From a virus, in IMG/VR virus record IMGVR_UViG_3300031787_005083, positions 62,001-126,000 of that record: a stretch of 64,000 nucleotides of DNA. One strand, written 5' to 3'. How positions within the stretch are numbered: position 1 is the first letter of the stretch; each line of letters opens with the position of its first letter. A program made the position numbers and the translations under genes. Below, piece after piece: positions 9,619 to 62,850 of this stretch. A model generated the notes under the pieces. It had not been told where the DNA came from and ran no database searches. It saw only the letters and a list, made by a program, of their open reading frames with translations.

Positions 9619-10632
9619 TTACTTGCCGCCAATGATTGATTTCTTATTGGCTGCTGTGTCACCGGAGCCTTTCTTCTCTGCGCCGTGACCTTTTGCTACA
9701 CCACTCATTTTAGTGGCGCTCTTTGAACCAGGAACGTTTACATTGCCAGCATTGTCTTCTTTAGGTGAACCACCTTTGAAAACGCCATTGCCTTTTAGTT
9801 GACCTTTGTTAGCTTCAACACCTTGCTCTGTTCCAGCTTGGTTCAAGTTAGATGCGGTACCGCCCATATCATTTTTGTTAGCAACTACGGACTTTGTGTT
9901 TGCTCCGTTGTCACCCATTTTACCAAATTGATTGTATGTTTGGCCGCCTACTTTTTCGACATATTCACGCATTTCTTCTGCGGCGGATTTTTTCATATCC
10001 TTTTTCTTGTCGTCTTTTTTATCTTTTTTAGCTTCGAAAGCATAAGATTCTTTTTCTTCTTCGTCGTCGGACTCTTCGCCTTCTTCGTCGTCGGAACCTT
10101 CTTCGTCACCGCCCATGTCATCCATGTCGCCGTGCTCTTCTTCACCTTCTTCACCAGACATCATTTTTTCAAATTCAGCCTTTAGTTCGTCTAGTGCGTC
10201 TTCTAGATCAACTACACGATCTTCAATACCGCCACCTTCTTCGTCACTGCCCATGTCATCCATGCCCATGTCGCCGCCGTCTACTTCAACGTCACCCATC
10301 ATGTTGTCAGCTGGATCACCGCCCATCGCCATTGGGTCAGCTTCTACTTCAAATTCGTCTAAGTTGAAATCTTCGTCAACTTTTTTATCTTCGTCATCAG
10401 ACTCATCAACTTCTTCGTCGGAAGCTTCATCAACTTCTTCGTCATCTGACTCATCAACTTCTTCATCAGAAGCTTCGTCTACATCTTTATCTTCTAGATC
10501 ATCTTCTAAAAGTGCTTCGTAAATTTCACGTGATTTTTCAACCACGATTTCATGGAAAAGCTCTTCAGCACCTGCTTTATCTTCATTGATAAGGCGCTCA
10601 AGCATTTCTTCAAACTTTTTGCGATCTGCCAT
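9619..10632 (-). CDS. Acidic prohead-core-type protein (gp68/gp67 position)
   Basis: 337 residues from ATG at 10632 (MADRKKFEEMLERLI), which has AGGAG upstream; an upstream in-frame ATG at 10674 lacks such a site. The N-terminal helix is followed by a highly acidic repeat tract (DEASDEEVDESDDEEVDE type) over about residues 60-215, then a Lys-rich patch (KKDKKDDKKKDMKKS) and a Gly/Asn-rich tail with KGNGVFKGGSPKEDNAGNVN. Its place between gp20-side genes and gp21 is that of T4 gp67/gp68, small acidic core proteins cleaved by gp21. The length is much greater than either. A role as internal core or DNA-mimic filler is inferred from charge and position. Confidence 0.65.
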   Translation of the reverse strand: MADRKKFEEMLERLINEDKAGAEELFHEIVVEKSREIYEALLEDDLEDKDVDEASDEEVDESDDEEVDEASDEEVDESDDEDKKVDEDFNLDEFEVEADPMAMGGDPADNMMGDVEVDGGDMGMDDMGSDEEGGGIEDRVVDLEDALDELKAEFEKMMSGEEGEEEHGDMDDMGGDEEGSDDEEGEESDDEEEKESYAFEAKKDKKDDKKKDMKKSAAEEMREYVEKVGGQTYNQFGKMGDNGANTKSVVANKNDMGGTASNLNQAGTEQGVEANKGQLKGNGVFKGGSPKEDNAGNVNVPGSKSATKMSGVAKGHGAEKKGSGDTAANKKSIIGGK

Positions 10633-10743
10633 TTGTATTCTCCTGTAAGTAATTACCTGTGGTAAGGCTGTCATGTTTATTTACTCGTTTTGGGGAAAAG
10701 TGCGCAGATATAGGCAAAAAACGGCTCGTTTTGAGCAGTTTGC

Positions 10744-13472: not shown

Positions 13473-15686
13473 TTAACCTAATCCTCTCATAACATCACCG
13501 CTCATACCTCTAATGCCTTTAAGTTGTTTCTGTTGAATTTCTAACTGCTGACCTGCTGTTTGGGCAAGTTGTTCCATTGGCCCTTTAATTGAGCTTGCTA
13601 CATCTTCAATTGGCTTTTTAATTTCGCTCATTGCAGATCTAAATGATTGCGTTAGTTCACTCATATCCATACCTTTTGCCGAAGCATTTGAAACCATTTG
13701 CCTAGAAGTATTCTGCATAGTATTTAACATACCGTTAAGTGTTTGTACGTTATTTGCGGCTAATGTTTCCATAATTGGCGTTACATTGCTTGCAACATCA
13801 TTTGATAATGTTCCTACATTAAATATGTCGCTTACTGCTTGTAAAGCGCCAAGAGCACTATTTCGCATAATGCTAGCAGTCTGTTCTGGTGTTTGCACAG
13901 ATTCAATACCATGCAATAACATGTTAGACTGTTTACCAAAATTTTCAAATAGTCTACCAGTTTTACCTAGTGACCCTGTTTCGCGTCCTGGGTCATTTTG
14001 AGTTCCCCTTCTGTCAGGCGGTATTGATCTTTCATTTACTGGTCCGTTTACTACTACGGTTCCTGTTGCATTTACGTTTACATTTTCCCATGTTAAACTC
14101 ATTGCTTCTTTTATTTTAGATGCTAAATCTTCAATTAATTTTGTACGCTCACTTTCTGGCGACTCTTTAATTTGAGTAACTAATTTATTAATTTCTGCAG
14201 CAAGTTCTGGGTTATTAGCTTGGATAGCATTTCTAACTGCTGCACTTGAGTTAGCTACTACCGCTGCCATATCAGATCCACCTATTCCTAAAGTAGATCT
14301 AACAGTAGATAATATATTGTCAACTTCATTTTTGACATTAAGTTGTGTTCTTAAGTAATTTGCAAAATCGTCTGCACTTTTTCCAAGAGTACTATATAGT
14401 CCGCTAATTTGTTTTTGTGCTTCTAACGCCATCCCACTTGCAATACCCTGCAATTTTAATAAGGCTTCAACAGCTGATCGACCTTCGTCTTCAACTTCTT
14501 TACCTGTCTTAGGATCTATTGTTTTAGGTCCTTTCATTATTTCTTCTTGCTTTTTCTTAACTCTATCTAAGAACTCAGCACCTGCTAGATCAACATTTTT
14601 TCCTTCAGCTTTAAACTGATCTTGAACTTGGCGAATGGCTTCTGCTAATCCAAAAGCTCCTTCACCAAATACTCTACTGTACAATTCTGTAATATTAGAA
14701 TCAACTCTGCCGCCTAATTTAGCTAGTTCTCGCATAGTAGTTGACTGTTGTTCTGCTGCCGCAGTACTTAGAGCTGCTGCAAGGGCTGCTTCGCGCTCTG
14801 CATCTGTTCCATTCTTTAAAACTCTTTCGTATTCTTCAAATGCTTTTACAGTTTTAGGCATCATAGCAACCAGCGGAGCAACATCTTTTCCTGGAAACTT
14901 TCTAATTACCATATCTTCAAACAACTGCTGCATAGCAGGACCCATAGTTTTAAATAATTGAGAACCTTCAAGGAAAGATTTTCTTGATTTAGTATCTAAC
15001 TCAGTTAGATATGCTGCTACGTCACCCTGACGCATTTTTGCTTCTATCTCTTTTTGTAACTGTTGTGTTTGCTTACCAGTTAATTTAGATAGTTTGTCAA
15101 GATTTTTAGTGAACTCCATTGCAGATGCATTTCGTTCTTCTTCTGTTTGTTGTTGGCCTTTGCGTCTATAATTTTCTATAGCATCGTATTGTAAGAAACT
15201 TTCGTTAATATCTTTAGTTGTTAGACCTAATCGCTGTAATTGTAGAGAAGTTTCAGTGGATTGGCCCTCTAATGTAAAAAAGAACTTGCGCTGCATGTCC
15301 AAGAATCTTGAAGCACCATCAGACACTCCTACTAGGCCATCGCCAAATGTTAAAAGGAAATCAGTATTGCTGCTTATCAGCGATGCCATTTCATCAAGTT
15401 TTAATCTAGCACCTGCGGCAGATTCGTTCATCTTGCCAATACTCATACCAAAATCTACACCAAATCTTGAAAACCCTTGCAGTGTACCTAAGCCACCTTC
15501 AAGATATTTTACAACTGAATTAAGTGCTCCTAGACCAGAAGTAAGATCAGATAATTGAGGATTAGTATCTAGTAGACCGCCAGCAAATCCTTTAAGACCC
15601 GCAGTAGCTTTGCGTACAGTGCCCGTAAACACATTACCTGCACCGGTAGCTACTTTATCTGAGACGGTTTTGTCATTTTCAGCCAA
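13473..15686 (-). CDS. Probable tape-measure protein (gp29-like position)
   Basis: The 737-residue product is nearly all helical, without disulfides or enzymatic motifs. The N-terminus is Gly/Ala/Leu-rich with amphipathic stretches (AGLKGFAGGLLDTNPQLSDL) and a long coiled middle follows (MEFTKNLDKLSKLTGKQTQQ). Both are typical of tail-length (tape-measure) proteins and fit gp29-type function: setting tail length and spanning the tube lumen. The start is TTG at 15686 with AGGAG 8 bases upstream; the next in-frame ATG is too far inside. Its 5' end faces the gp26-type chaperone cassette across overlapping promoters, the usual neighbour of a tape-measure gene. Assignment rests on architecture and context, not on clear sequence motifs. 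Confidence 0.6.
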   Translation of the reverse strand: MAENDKTVSDKVATGAGNVFTGTVRKATAGLKGFAGGLLDTNPQLSDLTSGLGALNSVVKYLEGGLGTLQGFSRFGVDFGMSIGKMNESAAGARLKLDEMASLISSNTDFLLTFGDGLVGVSDGASRFLDMQRKFFFTLEGQSTETSLQLQRLGLTTKDINESFLQYDAIENYRRKGQQQTEEERNASAMEFTKNLDKLSKLTGKQTQQLQKEIEAKMRQGDVAAYLTELDTKSRKSFLEGSQLFKTMGPAMQQLFEDMVIRKFPGKDVAPLVAMMPKTVKAFEEYERVLKNGTDAEREAALAAALSTAAAEQQSTTMRELAKLGGRVDSNITELYSRVFGEGAFGLAEAIRQVQDQFKAEGKNVDLAGAEFLDRVKKKQEEIMKGPKTIDPKTGKEVEDEGRSAVEALLKLQGIASGMALEAQKQISGLYSTLGKSADDFANYLRTQLNVKNEVDNILSTVRSTLGIGGSDMAAVVANSSAAVRNAIQANNPELAAEINKLVTQIKESPESERTKLIEDLASKIKEAMSLTWENVNVNATGTVVVNGPVNERSIPPDRRGTQNDPGRETGSLGKTGRLFENFGKQSNMLLHGIESVQTPEQTASIMRNSALGALQAVSDIFNVGTLSNDVASNVTPIMETLAANNVQTLNGMLNTMQNTSRQMVSNASAKGMDMSELTQSFRSAMSEIKKPIEDVASSIKGPMEQLAQTAGQQLEIQQKQLKGIRGMSGDVMRGLG

Positions 15687-15758: not shown

Positions 15759-16595
15759 ATGGAAAACTATTCAAGTCCTCTTCAGAAGTATAAGAGGGAA
15801 CCAAAATTGTTAATTGACTTACCCAGTAAGGGAAGTTTTTACCCTCGCAACGCACTAGAAAAGGCAACTGAACTTGAAGTGTACAGTATGACAGCCAGCG
15901 ATGAAATGCGATTAAAAACTCCTGATGCACTTTATACAGGCAATGCTGTTGTTAATACAATTCAACGTTGTATACCCGGTATCAAGGACGCATGGGCCAT
16001 GCCTGTAATTGATGTTGACTATGTGTTAGCTGCCATTAGATTGGCAACTTACGGTGAAAATATCACTATAAATTCAAAATGTCCTGAGTGTAGTAACGAA
16101 GATGCGTACGGTATTCCAATTCAATCTATACTTGATCACTACAATTCAGTTAACTTTATAAACGAATTTAGAATTAACAATTTTATTTTTAGAATACGTC
16201 CGTTAAACTATAGAGAATTAACTGACATACAACAAAAAAGTTTTACTATTCAGCGACAACTTAATCAATACGTGTCACAAATAGACGACCAAGAAAAACA
16301 ACAAGCTGAGGTTAATAGATTATTTGACGACATTAACTCTATTACTATCAACACTATACAAAAAGTTGTTGTTGAAATAACTACGCCTGACGGTGACAAA
16401 GAAATGCATCATCAGTTTATAGTTGACTTTTTAGAAAACGGCGAAAAAGAGTATTTTGAAGAAACTAAAAAAGTTTACGAAACTAACTTAGAGAATTGGA
16501 ACATTAAGCCTAGTAGTGTTGCGTGTAGTGCCTGTAGTCACGAATATAAAATATTACCAAACTTAGACTATTCAAGTTTTTTCGGTCGAGGCTAA
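15759..16595 (+). CDS. 26: gp26-type baseplate hub / tail assembly protein, zero-frame product
   Basis: 278 residues. LLIDLPSKGSFYPRNALEKA and the helix MPVIDVDYVLAAIRLATYGE are typical of the T4 gp26 hub-assembly family. Two CxxC pairs, CPEC at 108-111 and CSAC at 256-259, look like a zinc ribbon split across a helical insertion (QQKSFTIQRQLNQYVSQIDD region). The protein ends YSSFFGRG. The last codons overlap a -1 frameshift site at 16577-16583, where part of the ribosomes would switch to a second frame. Late promoter at 15713. It is the only plus-strand gene in this stretch, divergent from the tape-measure gene. By analogy with lambda G/GT it is probably a tail-assembly chaperone with gp26 ancestry. 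Confidence 0.8.
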   Translation: MENYSSPLQKYKREPKLLIDLPSKGSFYPRNALEKATELEVYSMTASDEMRLKTPDALYTGNAVVNTIQRCIPGIKDAWAMPVIDVDYVLAAIRLATYGENITINSKCPECSNEDAYGIPIQSILDHYNSVNFINEFRINNFIFRIRPLNYRELTDIQQKSFTIQRQLNQYVSQIDDQEKQQAEVNRLFDDINSITINTIQKVVVEITTPDGDKEMHHQFIVDFLENGEKEYFEETKKVYETNLENWNIKPSSVACSACSHEYKILPNLDYSSFFGRG

Positions 16596-16816
16596 TTGAG
16601 ACTCCGGACTCTGCATTACCTCAATTAGCCAAAGAATACGAAAACGAAATTAAACAACTCAAGCACAACATCTATAAAATTTGTTGGTTCATGCGAGGCG
16701 GAGTTGCATCAGATGTATTATTCACTGACACAGATATGGATGACTTAATGATTCTTCATACTGTAATTGAAGAAAATATAGAGACTGCTAAAAAGACAGG
16801 AATGCCGTTAATCTAA
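15759..16816 (+). CDS. Predicted -1 frameshift fusion: gp26-type protein plus 77-residue extension
   Basis: Translation shifting -1 on TTTTTTC (16577-16583) reads residues 1-275 of the zero frame, then 77 residues from 16583 to 16813 (stop 16814-16816), 352 in total. The extension has no ATG, GTG or TTG start, yet it looks like real protein: YENEIKQLKHNIYKICWFMR, GGVASDV, then VIEENIETAKKTGMPLI. An open frame with protein-like composition and no start codon, joined to a shift site, is the classic sign of a frameshift product. The 3' end overlaps the convergent minus gene by 9 bases. In T4 gene 51 follows 26; here the extension is far shorter than T4 gp51, so orthology is unproven. Confidence 0.8.
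16577..16630 (+). promoter_or_regulatory. -1 programmed ribosomal frameshift signal
   Basis: Slippery heptamer T TTT TTC in the zero frame (16577-16583), a 6-base spacer GGTCGA (16584-16589), then a perfect 11-bp stem GGCTAATTGAG (16590-16600) with CTCAATTAGCC (16620-16630) closing a 19-base loop. The zero-frame TAA (16593-16595) lies inside the 5' arm. Spacing and stem strength match known -1 frameshift elements. Confidence 0.88.
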
Positions 16817-17806
16817 TCCTGCAGCCCAATTTTTTCTTGTAGGTTCAGACTTCGGAGGCTCAGACTGAGAGCTGCTGCTACTTGGTGCAGAACTACTTGC
16901 AGCGGGCGCCGATGCCGATGCAGTTGGAGCAGGTGCAGCAGGTGTAGGCTTAGCAGATGTATAGTCTTGCTTACTTTTCTCAACACCGGCTTTGTCTCTC
17001 GGAGACATACCCATAGCATACTTCAAGTCTTTTTGTACATCATCATCGAGAGACACATCAGGATTAAATTTTGAAGCTGTTGCAAACGCTAATGATATTG
17101 CTGGAGCATTCCAAGTATATTCTATTAATGCTTCTATTGTACTAGGTCTGTTAATTAACCACATTGCTCCATAACTTGCAGCCTCGCCTAATAGGTATGC
17201 AATTAATGCTCCTATTCCTAGTGTAGCAGATCCAGCAGCCAATGCGCCAGCAGTTCGTGCTGCCCGTATTCCATTAATAATTTTTGCAGCAATTACAGCT
17301 TGTGCTCCACTGGCTAAGATCGTTGCCGCTGCTGAACTTACCCAAGCACCATAAATTACTTTTGATCTTTCTTCATATTTTTTTACTGCTTCAGGACTTC
17401 CCATAGTACCAAAATTACCAGCCCTATAAGACTTATATAATTCAGTTTGTTCTGTAACATGTGTATCTACACTGCCAACAATTGAATACCCTGCGAAAAG
17501 AATTCCAAGACCGCCAGCAGACAGTTTTAGATTACGATAAAAGCGATTCGTTGATTTTATTTTATCAAGTTTATCTTTTTCTGCTTTTTCAGCATCAGCT
17601 ACCTTTTTATCAGCAGCCGCTTGAACTTTAGCATTTGCATCTTTAGCAGCGGTACGAGCTTGTCCAGGAGTACGATATGATCCTAGTTCTTTGCCAGACT
17701 CTGGATCAATTACAACAAAAAGTTTGTTAGGCGGATTTCCACGAGGTACTACATCGTACTCTTCATTTAGTTGATCTTTAGCACTTACAACATCATAAAC
17801 TCGCAT
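16808..17806 (-). CDS. Unknown protein with hydrophobic segments, 332 aa
   Basis: Start chosen at ATG 17806 (MRVYDVVSAKDQLNEEYDVV), which has AAGGA upstream and a late promoter at 17832-17840; the frame is open from 17863. After a basic, Ala/Lys-rich coiled region (residues 60-92) come hydrophobic stretches: LSAGGLGILFAGYSIVGSV, then WVSSAAATILASGAQAVIAA, then SATLGIGALIAYLLG. The C-terminal 60 residues are Pro/Ala/Ser low-complexity. No enzyme motif or signal peptide is seen. Late expression and membrane-like helices suggest an internal virion or ejected protein that meets the host membrane, but this is inference; a membrane-located assembly factor is possible. Confidence 0.6.
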   Translation of the reverse strand: MRVYDVVSAKDQLNEEYDVVPRGNPPNKLFVVIDPESGKELGSYRTPGQARTAAKDANAKVQAAADKKVADAEKAEKDKLDKIKSTNRFYRNLKLSAGGLGILFAGYSIVGSVDTHVTEQTELYKSYRAGNFGTMGSPEAVKKYEERSKVIYGAWVSSAAATILASGAQAVIAAKIINGIRAARTAGALAAGSATLGIGALIAYLLGEAASYGAMWLINRPSTIEALIEYTWNAPAISLAFATASKFNPDVSLDDDVQKDLKYAMGMSPRDKAGVEKSKQDYTSAKPTPAAPAPTASASAPAASSSAPSSSSSQSEPPKSEPTRKNWAAGLD

Positions 17807-18344: not shown

Positions 18345-18776
18345 TTATTTTGCCTTGCGCTCTTGTAGAGCTTGCCTAAGTGATACAGAACCGCCTACTC
18401 TTACATTAATGATACCGTTATAGTAATCATCTGTCTCAAGTACACAGCGGTCAAATTGTTCTTTAGCCTCTAAGTATGATAGTTCTGATCTTGATTTACA
18501 GTAGTAAATTATTTCTCTTGTGAATTGTTCCGGGCCTAATGATGCGACATCTGCTTGTAAGCTCTCTGAAGAGCCCCAATAATCTCGCCAATCACTTTCT
18601 ACAGTGGTTTTGCGCTTGCGTTTTTTGCCTTTGAGTGGTGGTTTAGTGCGTTTAAACTGTGCTAGTTTTTTGCCTATATATTTGCGCCCGGTAGTTAGAT
18701 TCGTTATCAAATAAACAAAGCCAATAATGTCTTCGGGTATTTCATCGACGATGATTCCTTGATAAGTCCACTGCAT
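18345..18776 (-). CDS. GIY-YIG nuclease-family protein, 143 aa
   Basis: The N-terminal domain shows the family core: GFVYLITNLTTGRKYIGKK (VYL at 21-23, YIG at 33-35), a helix with basic residues, DWRDYWGSS, then an Arg in FTREII (R88) and Glu in LEAKEQF (E103/E106) that could be the metal-binding Glu. A Lys/Arg-rich patch (KGKKRKRKTT) may bind DNA. There is no separate DNA-recognition domain of the long I-Tev kind, so a small Seg-like or repair-type endonuclease is more likely than an intron homing enzyme. It is the last gene of the gp47/gp46 run, starting 3 bases past the previous stop. Confidence 0.75.
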   Translation of the reverse strand: MQWTYQGIIVDEIPEDIIGFVYLITNLTTGRKYIGKKLAQFKRTKPPLKGKKRKRKTTVESDWRDYWGSSESLQADVASLGPEQFTREIIYYCKSRSELSYLEAKEQFDRCVLETDDYYNGIINVRVGGSVSLRQALQERKAK

Positions 18777-61418: not shown

Positions 61419-62850
61419 AGAAGATTTAAAGCAATATAGAGAACGTGTTCTAGACACTAAGAGCACCAGCTTCTGCGGAGCAAAATGGTATAATGCTACT
61501 ACATGGCTAGGTAGTGGTACCACAGCAAGTTGCCATCATCCTCCAGCACATAAAATTCCAATAGAGGAAATTAAACGTAATTACACTGCTATTCATAATA
61601 CTGAACATAAAAAAGAAATGCGTCGAATGATGCAGTCTGGCGAACGCCCTCGCGAGTGTGAGTACTGTTGGAAAATGGAAGACATGGGCAAAGATGCTGT
61701 TAGTGATCGAACATTTAAAAGTATCATTTATACTGATGAAGAACTACAACAGGCGTTTGATGCAGACATAAACGAAAATACTAATTTAAAAACTTTTGAA
61801 ATTGCATTTGATAGGGTATGTAATCTTGCCTGTTCATATTGTAATGCTAGTTTCTCAACTACATGGGCAAAGGATATTAAAAACAACGGTCCTTATATTA
61901 ATCTTGTAAGTGACGGCGCAGGCGCATTTCATCACGATGGATCTTGGGCACAGCCTTACAAAGACGATGAAGATAATCCCTATGTACAAGCATTTTGGAA
62001 ATGGTGGGATAACGGACTATCAGAAAGTCTACAAGAGTTACGAATCACAGGCGGCGAACCTCTAATGAGTGGTAACACATGGAAATTATTTGATTGGTTT
62101 GAAGCGCAAAACAGTGATATGAGATTTGCTATTAACAGTAACTTAATTGCAAAGTCTGATATTATAGATAAGTTAATTGCTAAATCAAAAAATATTAAAC
62201 ACTTTGATTTGTACACAAGTTGCGAAGCAGTAGGCGATCAAGCAGAATACATACGTGATGGTCTAGATTATCAACTATGGAAAACAAATCTAAAAAGAAT
62301 TCTTACAGAAGCAAACTATAAAGGTGTACACATAATGATGACTATTAATAGTTTATCTTTGTTTAGTATTACTGAATTTCTTGACGAAATGTACCAGCTA
62401 AAAGAAATGACACAAAGTAGAACTCCTACTGTTAGTTTAAATCTGTTAAGATTTCCTAGTTTTCAAAGTCCGTTGGCACTACCTAATCATATTAAAGATC
62501 ATTGCCATAAAAAGCTGTCAACATGGTATGCGCAAAATAAAGACCTACCAGGTTGGCACGAATTTGAACGTGCAAGTATTGAAAGATTAATTGATTATCT
62601 TGTTACAGTAGATGCACCTCATCGCAGAACAAGTAATCCTATTACACTGTGGAGAGACTTTAAAACTTTTTATCAGCAGTACGATCAGCGCAGATCAAAA
62701 TCCATATATGTATTTCCTAAAATTTTAACAGATTGGATTGATACTATACCTGATACAGACATAGCAATAAAAGAGTTAGCAGACAAAGAAGGCTGGGTGT
62801 TAACACCTGACTCAAGGAACATTGATGATCCTATTGCGACCTACAATTAA
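61402..62850 (+). CDS. Radical-SAM protein 2 (paralog)
   Basis: 482 residues. SAM cluster motif C140-NLA-C144-SY-C147 and GGEP at 217-220 in RITGGEPLMSG. C25, C44, C86 and C89 match cysteines of the previous protein exactly in position. It overlaps the upstream gene by 17 bases. The two proteins are diverged paralogs retained side by side, which implies different substrates or a two-subunit enzyme. Confidence 0.85.
   Translation: MPKKPEEDLKQYRERVLDTKSTSFCGAKWYNATTWLGSGTTASCHHPPAHKIPIEEIKRNYTAIHNTEHKKEMRRMMQSGERPRECEYCWKMEDMGKDAVSDRTFKSIIYTDEELQQAFDADINENTNLKTFEIAFDRVCNLACSYCNASFSTTWAKDIKNNGPYINLVSDGAGAFHHDGSWAQPYKDDEDNPYVQAFWKWWDNGLSESLQELRITGGEPLMSGNTWKLFDWFEAQNSDMRFAINSNLIAKSDIIDKLIAKSKNIKHFDLYTSCEAVGDQAEYIRDGLDYQLWKTNLKRILTEANYKGVHIMMTINSLSLFSITEFLDEMYQLKEMTQSRTPTVSLNLLRFPSFQSPLALPNHIKDHCHKKLSTWYAQNKDLPGWHEFERASIERLIDYLVTVDAPHRRTSNPITLWRDFKTFYQQYDQRRSKSIYVFPKILTDWIDTIPDTDIAIKELADKEGWVLTPDSRNIDDPIATYN

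Follow-up and report, generated by a model that had tools for sequence, protein, structure and literature searches.

Among the known tail assembly chaperones (TACs) are G/GT of phage lambda, whose frameshifting has been reviewed (PMC5009743), and E/E' of phage P2. In T4, gp26 and gp51 have been named as hub-assembly chaperones (PMC3004832). Credit for identifying TAC genes in T4-like phages goes to Vladimirov, Gautam and Davidson (Virology 566:9-15, 2022), a study represented here by the papers that cite it: PRFect (PMC10885494) does so for T4-like phages that pair a short gene with a longer, fused one, and the paper on Adele (PMC12846349, 2025) for poly-T -1 slippery sequences in T4-like TAC-N genes. 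On the word of these citing papers, frameshifting is already known as a tail-chaperone device in T4-like phages, and the impression given in an earlier note on the DNA analyzed here, that gp26-type genes had no described signal of this kind, was wrong. Our literature search, which included Vladimirov et al. through its citing papers, returned no direct description of gp26/gp51 frameshifting. A covarying stem and a map of the arrangement across lineages, both presented below, may be additions to this prior knowledge.

We analyzed a window of 64,000 nucleotides, positions 62,001 to 126,000 of the IMG/VR virus record IMGVR_UViG_3300031787_005083. Positions 15759-16816 are very probably a tail assembly chaperone gene of a T4-superfamily phage, of the lambda G/GT type and expressed by -1 frameshifting, with gp26 as the short product and gp26 plus an extension as the long one. 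The features of the locus are as follows.

13473 to 15686, minus strand: divergent neighboring gene, 737 aa, probable tape-measure protein (synteny, weak similarity).
15759 to 16595, plus strand: zero-frame ORF of the gp26 family, 278 aa, predicted short chaperone form, TAC-N (PF12322, phrog_150).
16577 to 16583, plus strand: slippery heptamer T_TTT_TTC.
16584 to 16589, plus strand: spacer GGTCGA of 6 nt, a spacing seen again in many relatives.
16590 to 16600, plus strand: 5' arm of the putative stimulatory stem, GGCTAATTGAG (folding, covariation).
16593 to 16595, plus strand: zero-frame stop TAA, within the 5' arm.
16620 to 16630, plus strand: 3' arm of the putative stimulatory stem, CTCAATTAGCC (folding, covariation).
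16583 to 16816, plus strand: -1 frame of 77 codons and a stop, predicted C-terminal extension of the long form, TAC-NC, with the junction ...SSFF-RSRL...

The zero-frame ORF ends ...AGT TTT TTC GGT CGA GGC TAA. The first base of the heptamer is the third base of the Ser codon AGT, which puts it in the T_TTT_TTC phase that a -1 slip requires, and the X_XXY_YYZ pattern expected of a -1 frameshift signal is thus found in frame ahead of the zero-frame stop. The two arms pair perfectly over 11 bp around a 19-nt loop, so that a structure of the expected kind, 5-9 nt downstream, begins 6 nt after the heptamer; its predicted RNA fold has an energy of -15.5 kcal/mol (z = -2.7), equaled in 3 of 200 shuffles. 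The earlier note had described heptamer, 6-base spacer and perfect 11-bp stem with the enclosed stop exactly to the base. An Rfam search of 16400-16900 gave no match. When the window was scanned for ORFs of at least 100 aa that carry an XXXYYYZ heptamer within their last 66 nt plus a -1 frame 45 codons or longer, the sole other ORF found was 9799-10185 (plus strand), which was dismissed as it is antisense to a real gene.

The gp26 assignment proposed from the letters alone holds: the zero-frame protein matches PF12322 T4_baseplate (E 6.2e-14; 52.6 bits, cut-off 24.5) and phrog_150, a baseplate hub family (5.6e-15). Its structure model has a pLDDT of 91, and the best BFVD matches are T4-like baseplate hub assembly proteins (E 7e-21, TM 0.87).

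Relatives gathered by tblastn and collection scans gave 188 sequences; this count includes the window, and many of the sequences are near-copies. In 185 of them the heptamer comes after a gp26-like frame and leads into a -1 frame 45 codons or longer, 123 of these loci being non-redundant (less than 90% nucleotide identity to each other in the region). The three exceptions are T4, Listeria phage LIS04 and a cyanophage contig (L115) whose sequence ends about 120 nt past the gene. Both heptamer and -1 frame are found in KVP40, phiAS5, phiM12, Moby, OLIVR6 and Melnitz. The heptamer reads TTTTTTC in 183 of the 185 loci and TTTTTTT in the other two, while at the other codon positions of the same genes, 31,594 in all, T_TTT_TT is met in frame just 18 times. 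Elsewhere in these genes, about a quarter of Phe codons are TTC, and FF pairs are often written TTC-TTT, which is never the case at the slip site. Amino-acid identity to the window drops under 30% across the set while the heptamer is kept, which argues that the DNA word itself is held by selection; with such conservation, a chance origin is untenable. In LIS04 (L026, 2687-2940), SP-15 (L199) and immuto (L197), the tape-measure gene directly follows the gp26 extension, which occupies the +1 (or -2) frame, and these phages may use a different frameshift direction.

The -1 frame runs for 77 codons from 16583 to the TAA at 16814-16816, and in relatives among known phages it stays open for about 62-80 codons. 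It belongs to a conserved WYMRGG family, and its first ATG, GTG or TTG is the ATG of WFM-RGG, 108 nt in. Differences between relatives fall at codon positions 1, 2 and 3 in proportions of 33, 18 and 49% in window-like loci and 29, 16 and 54% in cyanophages. The frame evolves as a coding sequence and has no start of its own, which bears out the earlier description of a start-less, protein-like open frame of 77 residues. The encoded domain is modeled as helical (pLDDT 91.7); a BFVD fold search gave no significant match, and no solved structure resembling the model was found in the PDB by sequence or by fold.

A separate small gene, translated by reinitiation or from its own start, would also account for a coding -1 frame. 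Depositors annotated such a gene in cyanophages, KVP40 and BF, as "baseplate hub assembly catalyst" or hypothetical, and an ATG overlaps or closely follows the zero-frame stop in BF, XbC2, KVP40 and phiM12. However, no start codon precedes the conserved WYM motif in the window or in relatives L015 and L017, and the PA5oct extension has none anywhere in it. What is conserved is the heptamer and not a start codon, and -1-frame conservation already covers the residues that immediately follow the junction (F-R..L), ahead of the first possible start. In addition, T4 gp51 joins a cyanophage-type C-terminus to a gp26-like domain. We consider a separate gene highly improbable. One gp26 relative, in Vibrio phage D531 (L195, 2185-2220), has no TTTTTT heptamer and ends CTT TTC AAG TAATGG; its -1 frame is open with an ATG overlapping the stop, and reinitiation or a non-canonical slip are both possible there.

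Whether heptamer and stem persist and covary in relatives had been posed as a check on the earlier reading; as seen above the heptamer is kept, and the stem shows compensatory changes. In an alignment of ten relatives picked for the same heptamer-stem spacing, 8 of the 11 stem pairs have changed on both sides. The number of both-side-changed cells is 14, against 5.9 in shuffles, and none of 500 shuffles reached that value. Sliding the stem partner by one to three columns abolishes the signal, and RNAalifold recovers the same helix unaided. A strong stem at a spacer of 4-7 nt is present in 22 of 54 window-like loci; the corresponding rates are 2.8% in shuffles and 2.6% at downstream anchor points. 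Contrary to expectation, the relatives do not all share one uniform stem: roughly half of the window-like ones, or more, have no obvious simple stem at a spacer of 4-7, so it is possible that the stem helps rather than being essential, or that another structure replaces it. The stem downstream of the heptamer is genuine but not universal among relatives. Cyanophages do not have the window-type stem and instead show a short hairpin (for example GGTCC-ATAT-GGACC) about 10 nt after the heptamer. This hairpin also covaries, in 4 of 5 pairs and with 21 cells against 8.9, although it overlaps conserved codons (His-Met) and part of its covariation may be due to protein constraint.

The stem also bears on the possibility that the -1 product comes from slippage during transcription of the T6 run and not from slippage on the ribosome. 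The signal does contain a T run, which is T7 in two relatives and longer in Melnitz. Six T is short for slippage by bacterial polymerases, however, and it is this length, in the T_TTT_TTC phase, that is preserved; moreover, many relatives have a covarying stem at ribosomal spacing, which that mechanism does not need. We consider transcriptional slippage highly improbable as well. An indel introduced by sequencing or assembly, splitting a single gene, is already refuted by the sequence comparisons, even though homopolymer runs are classic error sites: several IMG/VR contigs, each from a different sample, carry the arrangement in identical form, the 123 non-redundant loci share it, as do many finished phage genomes, and the zero-frame stop lies at a distance that varies by locus (12, 18, 21 nt and more), which one error cannot yield.

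The earlier note had also referred to a neighboring tape-measure gene. A divergent minus-strand gene does lie beside this locus; its identity comes from synteny and weak similarity, without a direct family match. The gene at 13473-15686 is conserved divergently in many window-like loci (about 24-32% identity) and weakly resembles RaK2 ORF088, for which the depositors had noted a likeness to a tape-measure protein. The syntenic gene of Serratia phage BF matches tape-measure PHROGs at about 3e-6. Taken together, these similarities make it a probable tape-measure protein. In LIS04, phiM12, SP-15 and immuto, the order is gp26, extension, tape measure (annotated or likely), whereas in the window and the RaK2/BF type, the probable tape-measure gene is divergent from the chaperone gene. 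Two other minus-strand ORFs of the window were observed in passing: 9619-10674 (351 aa), with very long Asp/Glu-rich stretches and in the same cluster as the portal gene, and 18345-18776 (143 aa; GFVYLITNLTTGRKYIGKK), which by eye resembles a GIY-YIG endonuclease.

In T4, gp26 (208 aa) and gp51 (249 aa) each match the whole length of PF12322. The T4 gp26 gene ends GAG TTC TTT GAG TTA CTA TAA, with no slippery heptamer and no -1 ORF, and RB43, ECD7 and phiAS4 have two separate genes, as in T4. The window's record, 185,762 bp long and possibly incomplete, contains one PF12322 gene, with the heptamer, and not the T4-type separate gp26 and gp51; no second gp51-like gene was found in this possibly incomplete record by a phrog_634 search run without a positive control. 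The T4 gp51 C-terminus and the -1 extension of cyanophage Bellamy share phrog_634 (1.2e-23 and 2.4e-28, respectively) and were also aligned directly; the KVP40 depositors had remarked on the likeness of the downstream ORF to the gp51 C-terminus. Profile comparison detected no homology of the window-type -1 domain to either the cyanophage extension or T4 gp51, so the link established here for the gp51 C-terminus is with the cyanophage type alone.

In the tree, T4-type gp26 and gp51 form one clade (99/99). Its neighbors are the KVP40 and phiAS5 genes, which have the frameshift signal; this placement is less well supported (81/70), and some branches are long. Read most simply, frameshifting came first, and duplication took its place in T4-type phages. 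Homologs with separate starts and neither heptamer nor stem, named beforehand as grounds for rejecting a frameshift, do exist but were seen only in the T4/RB49/RB43/phiAS4 type; there they reflect the gp26 and gp51 duplication and are not evidence against frameshifting here. We lean, by a little over an even chance, toward a wider scheme in which -1 frameshifting with lineage-specific covarying stem-loops is ancestral for the T4-superfamily tail chaperone, T4 genes 26 and 51 are a later Straboviridae duplication that froze the two products, and the SP-15 type apparently switched to the +1/-2 frame. If true, one chaperone family would have found three solutions to the same ratio problem.

For the window's gene, we infer frameshifting at this site, its efficiency and the chaperone action from the sequence and by analogy with lambda G/GT. 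Most ribosomes would terminate at 16593-16595, yielding a short form of 278 aa. The stem-loop 6 nt downstream would pause a minority, which would slip back one base on U_UUU_UUC, where both Phe tRNAs would re-pair with UUU, and would go on to make a 352-aa long form ending in the helical C-terminal domain. Following lambda G/GT, the abundant short form may coat the unfolded tape-measure protein, while the few long forms may recruit tail-tube subunits via their extra domain; both forms would depart before the virion is completed. The tail-chaperone reading of the earlier note is supported by a conserved signal with compensatory stem changes and by a predicted long/short pair that follows the G/GT logic.

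These results bring an uncultured T4-like phage, along with its relatives, under the scheme of frameshifting chaperones. They suggest that the genes called "hypothetical" or "baseplate hub assembly catalyst" in many cyanophages and large phages each encode the second half of a single frameshifted product, and the covarying stem offers an RNA-level signal for annotating such genes. They also support seeing T4 gp26 and gp51, long regarded as hub parts of unclear role, as the short and long tape-measure chaperones.

Compared with the chaperones of lambda and P2, which belong to a different protein family from PF12322/phrog_150, the window's gene has a larger zero-frame domain and a covarying stem after its heptamer, and it is divergent from the probable tape-measure gene, whereas in lambda and P2 the chaperone genes lie upstream of the tape measure. 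The TAC genes of Vandenendeviridae and Andersonviridae (Adele, PMC12846349) resemble it in signal and layout, with a predicted poly-T -1 site at the 3' end of TAC-N and a C-terminal domain downstream, but the Adele-type signal is reported as GTTTTT, whereas the window has T_TTT_TTC and a defined stem. T4 gp26 and gp51 are homologous to the window's protein through PF12322, gp51 having in addition the C-terminal domain of cyanophage -1 extensions; in T4, by sequence, the short and long proteins sharing an N-terminal domain are encoded by two separate genes with no heptamer, and in the window's record their counterparts are a single PF12322 zero-frame ORF, with its heptamer, and a conserved -1 extension.
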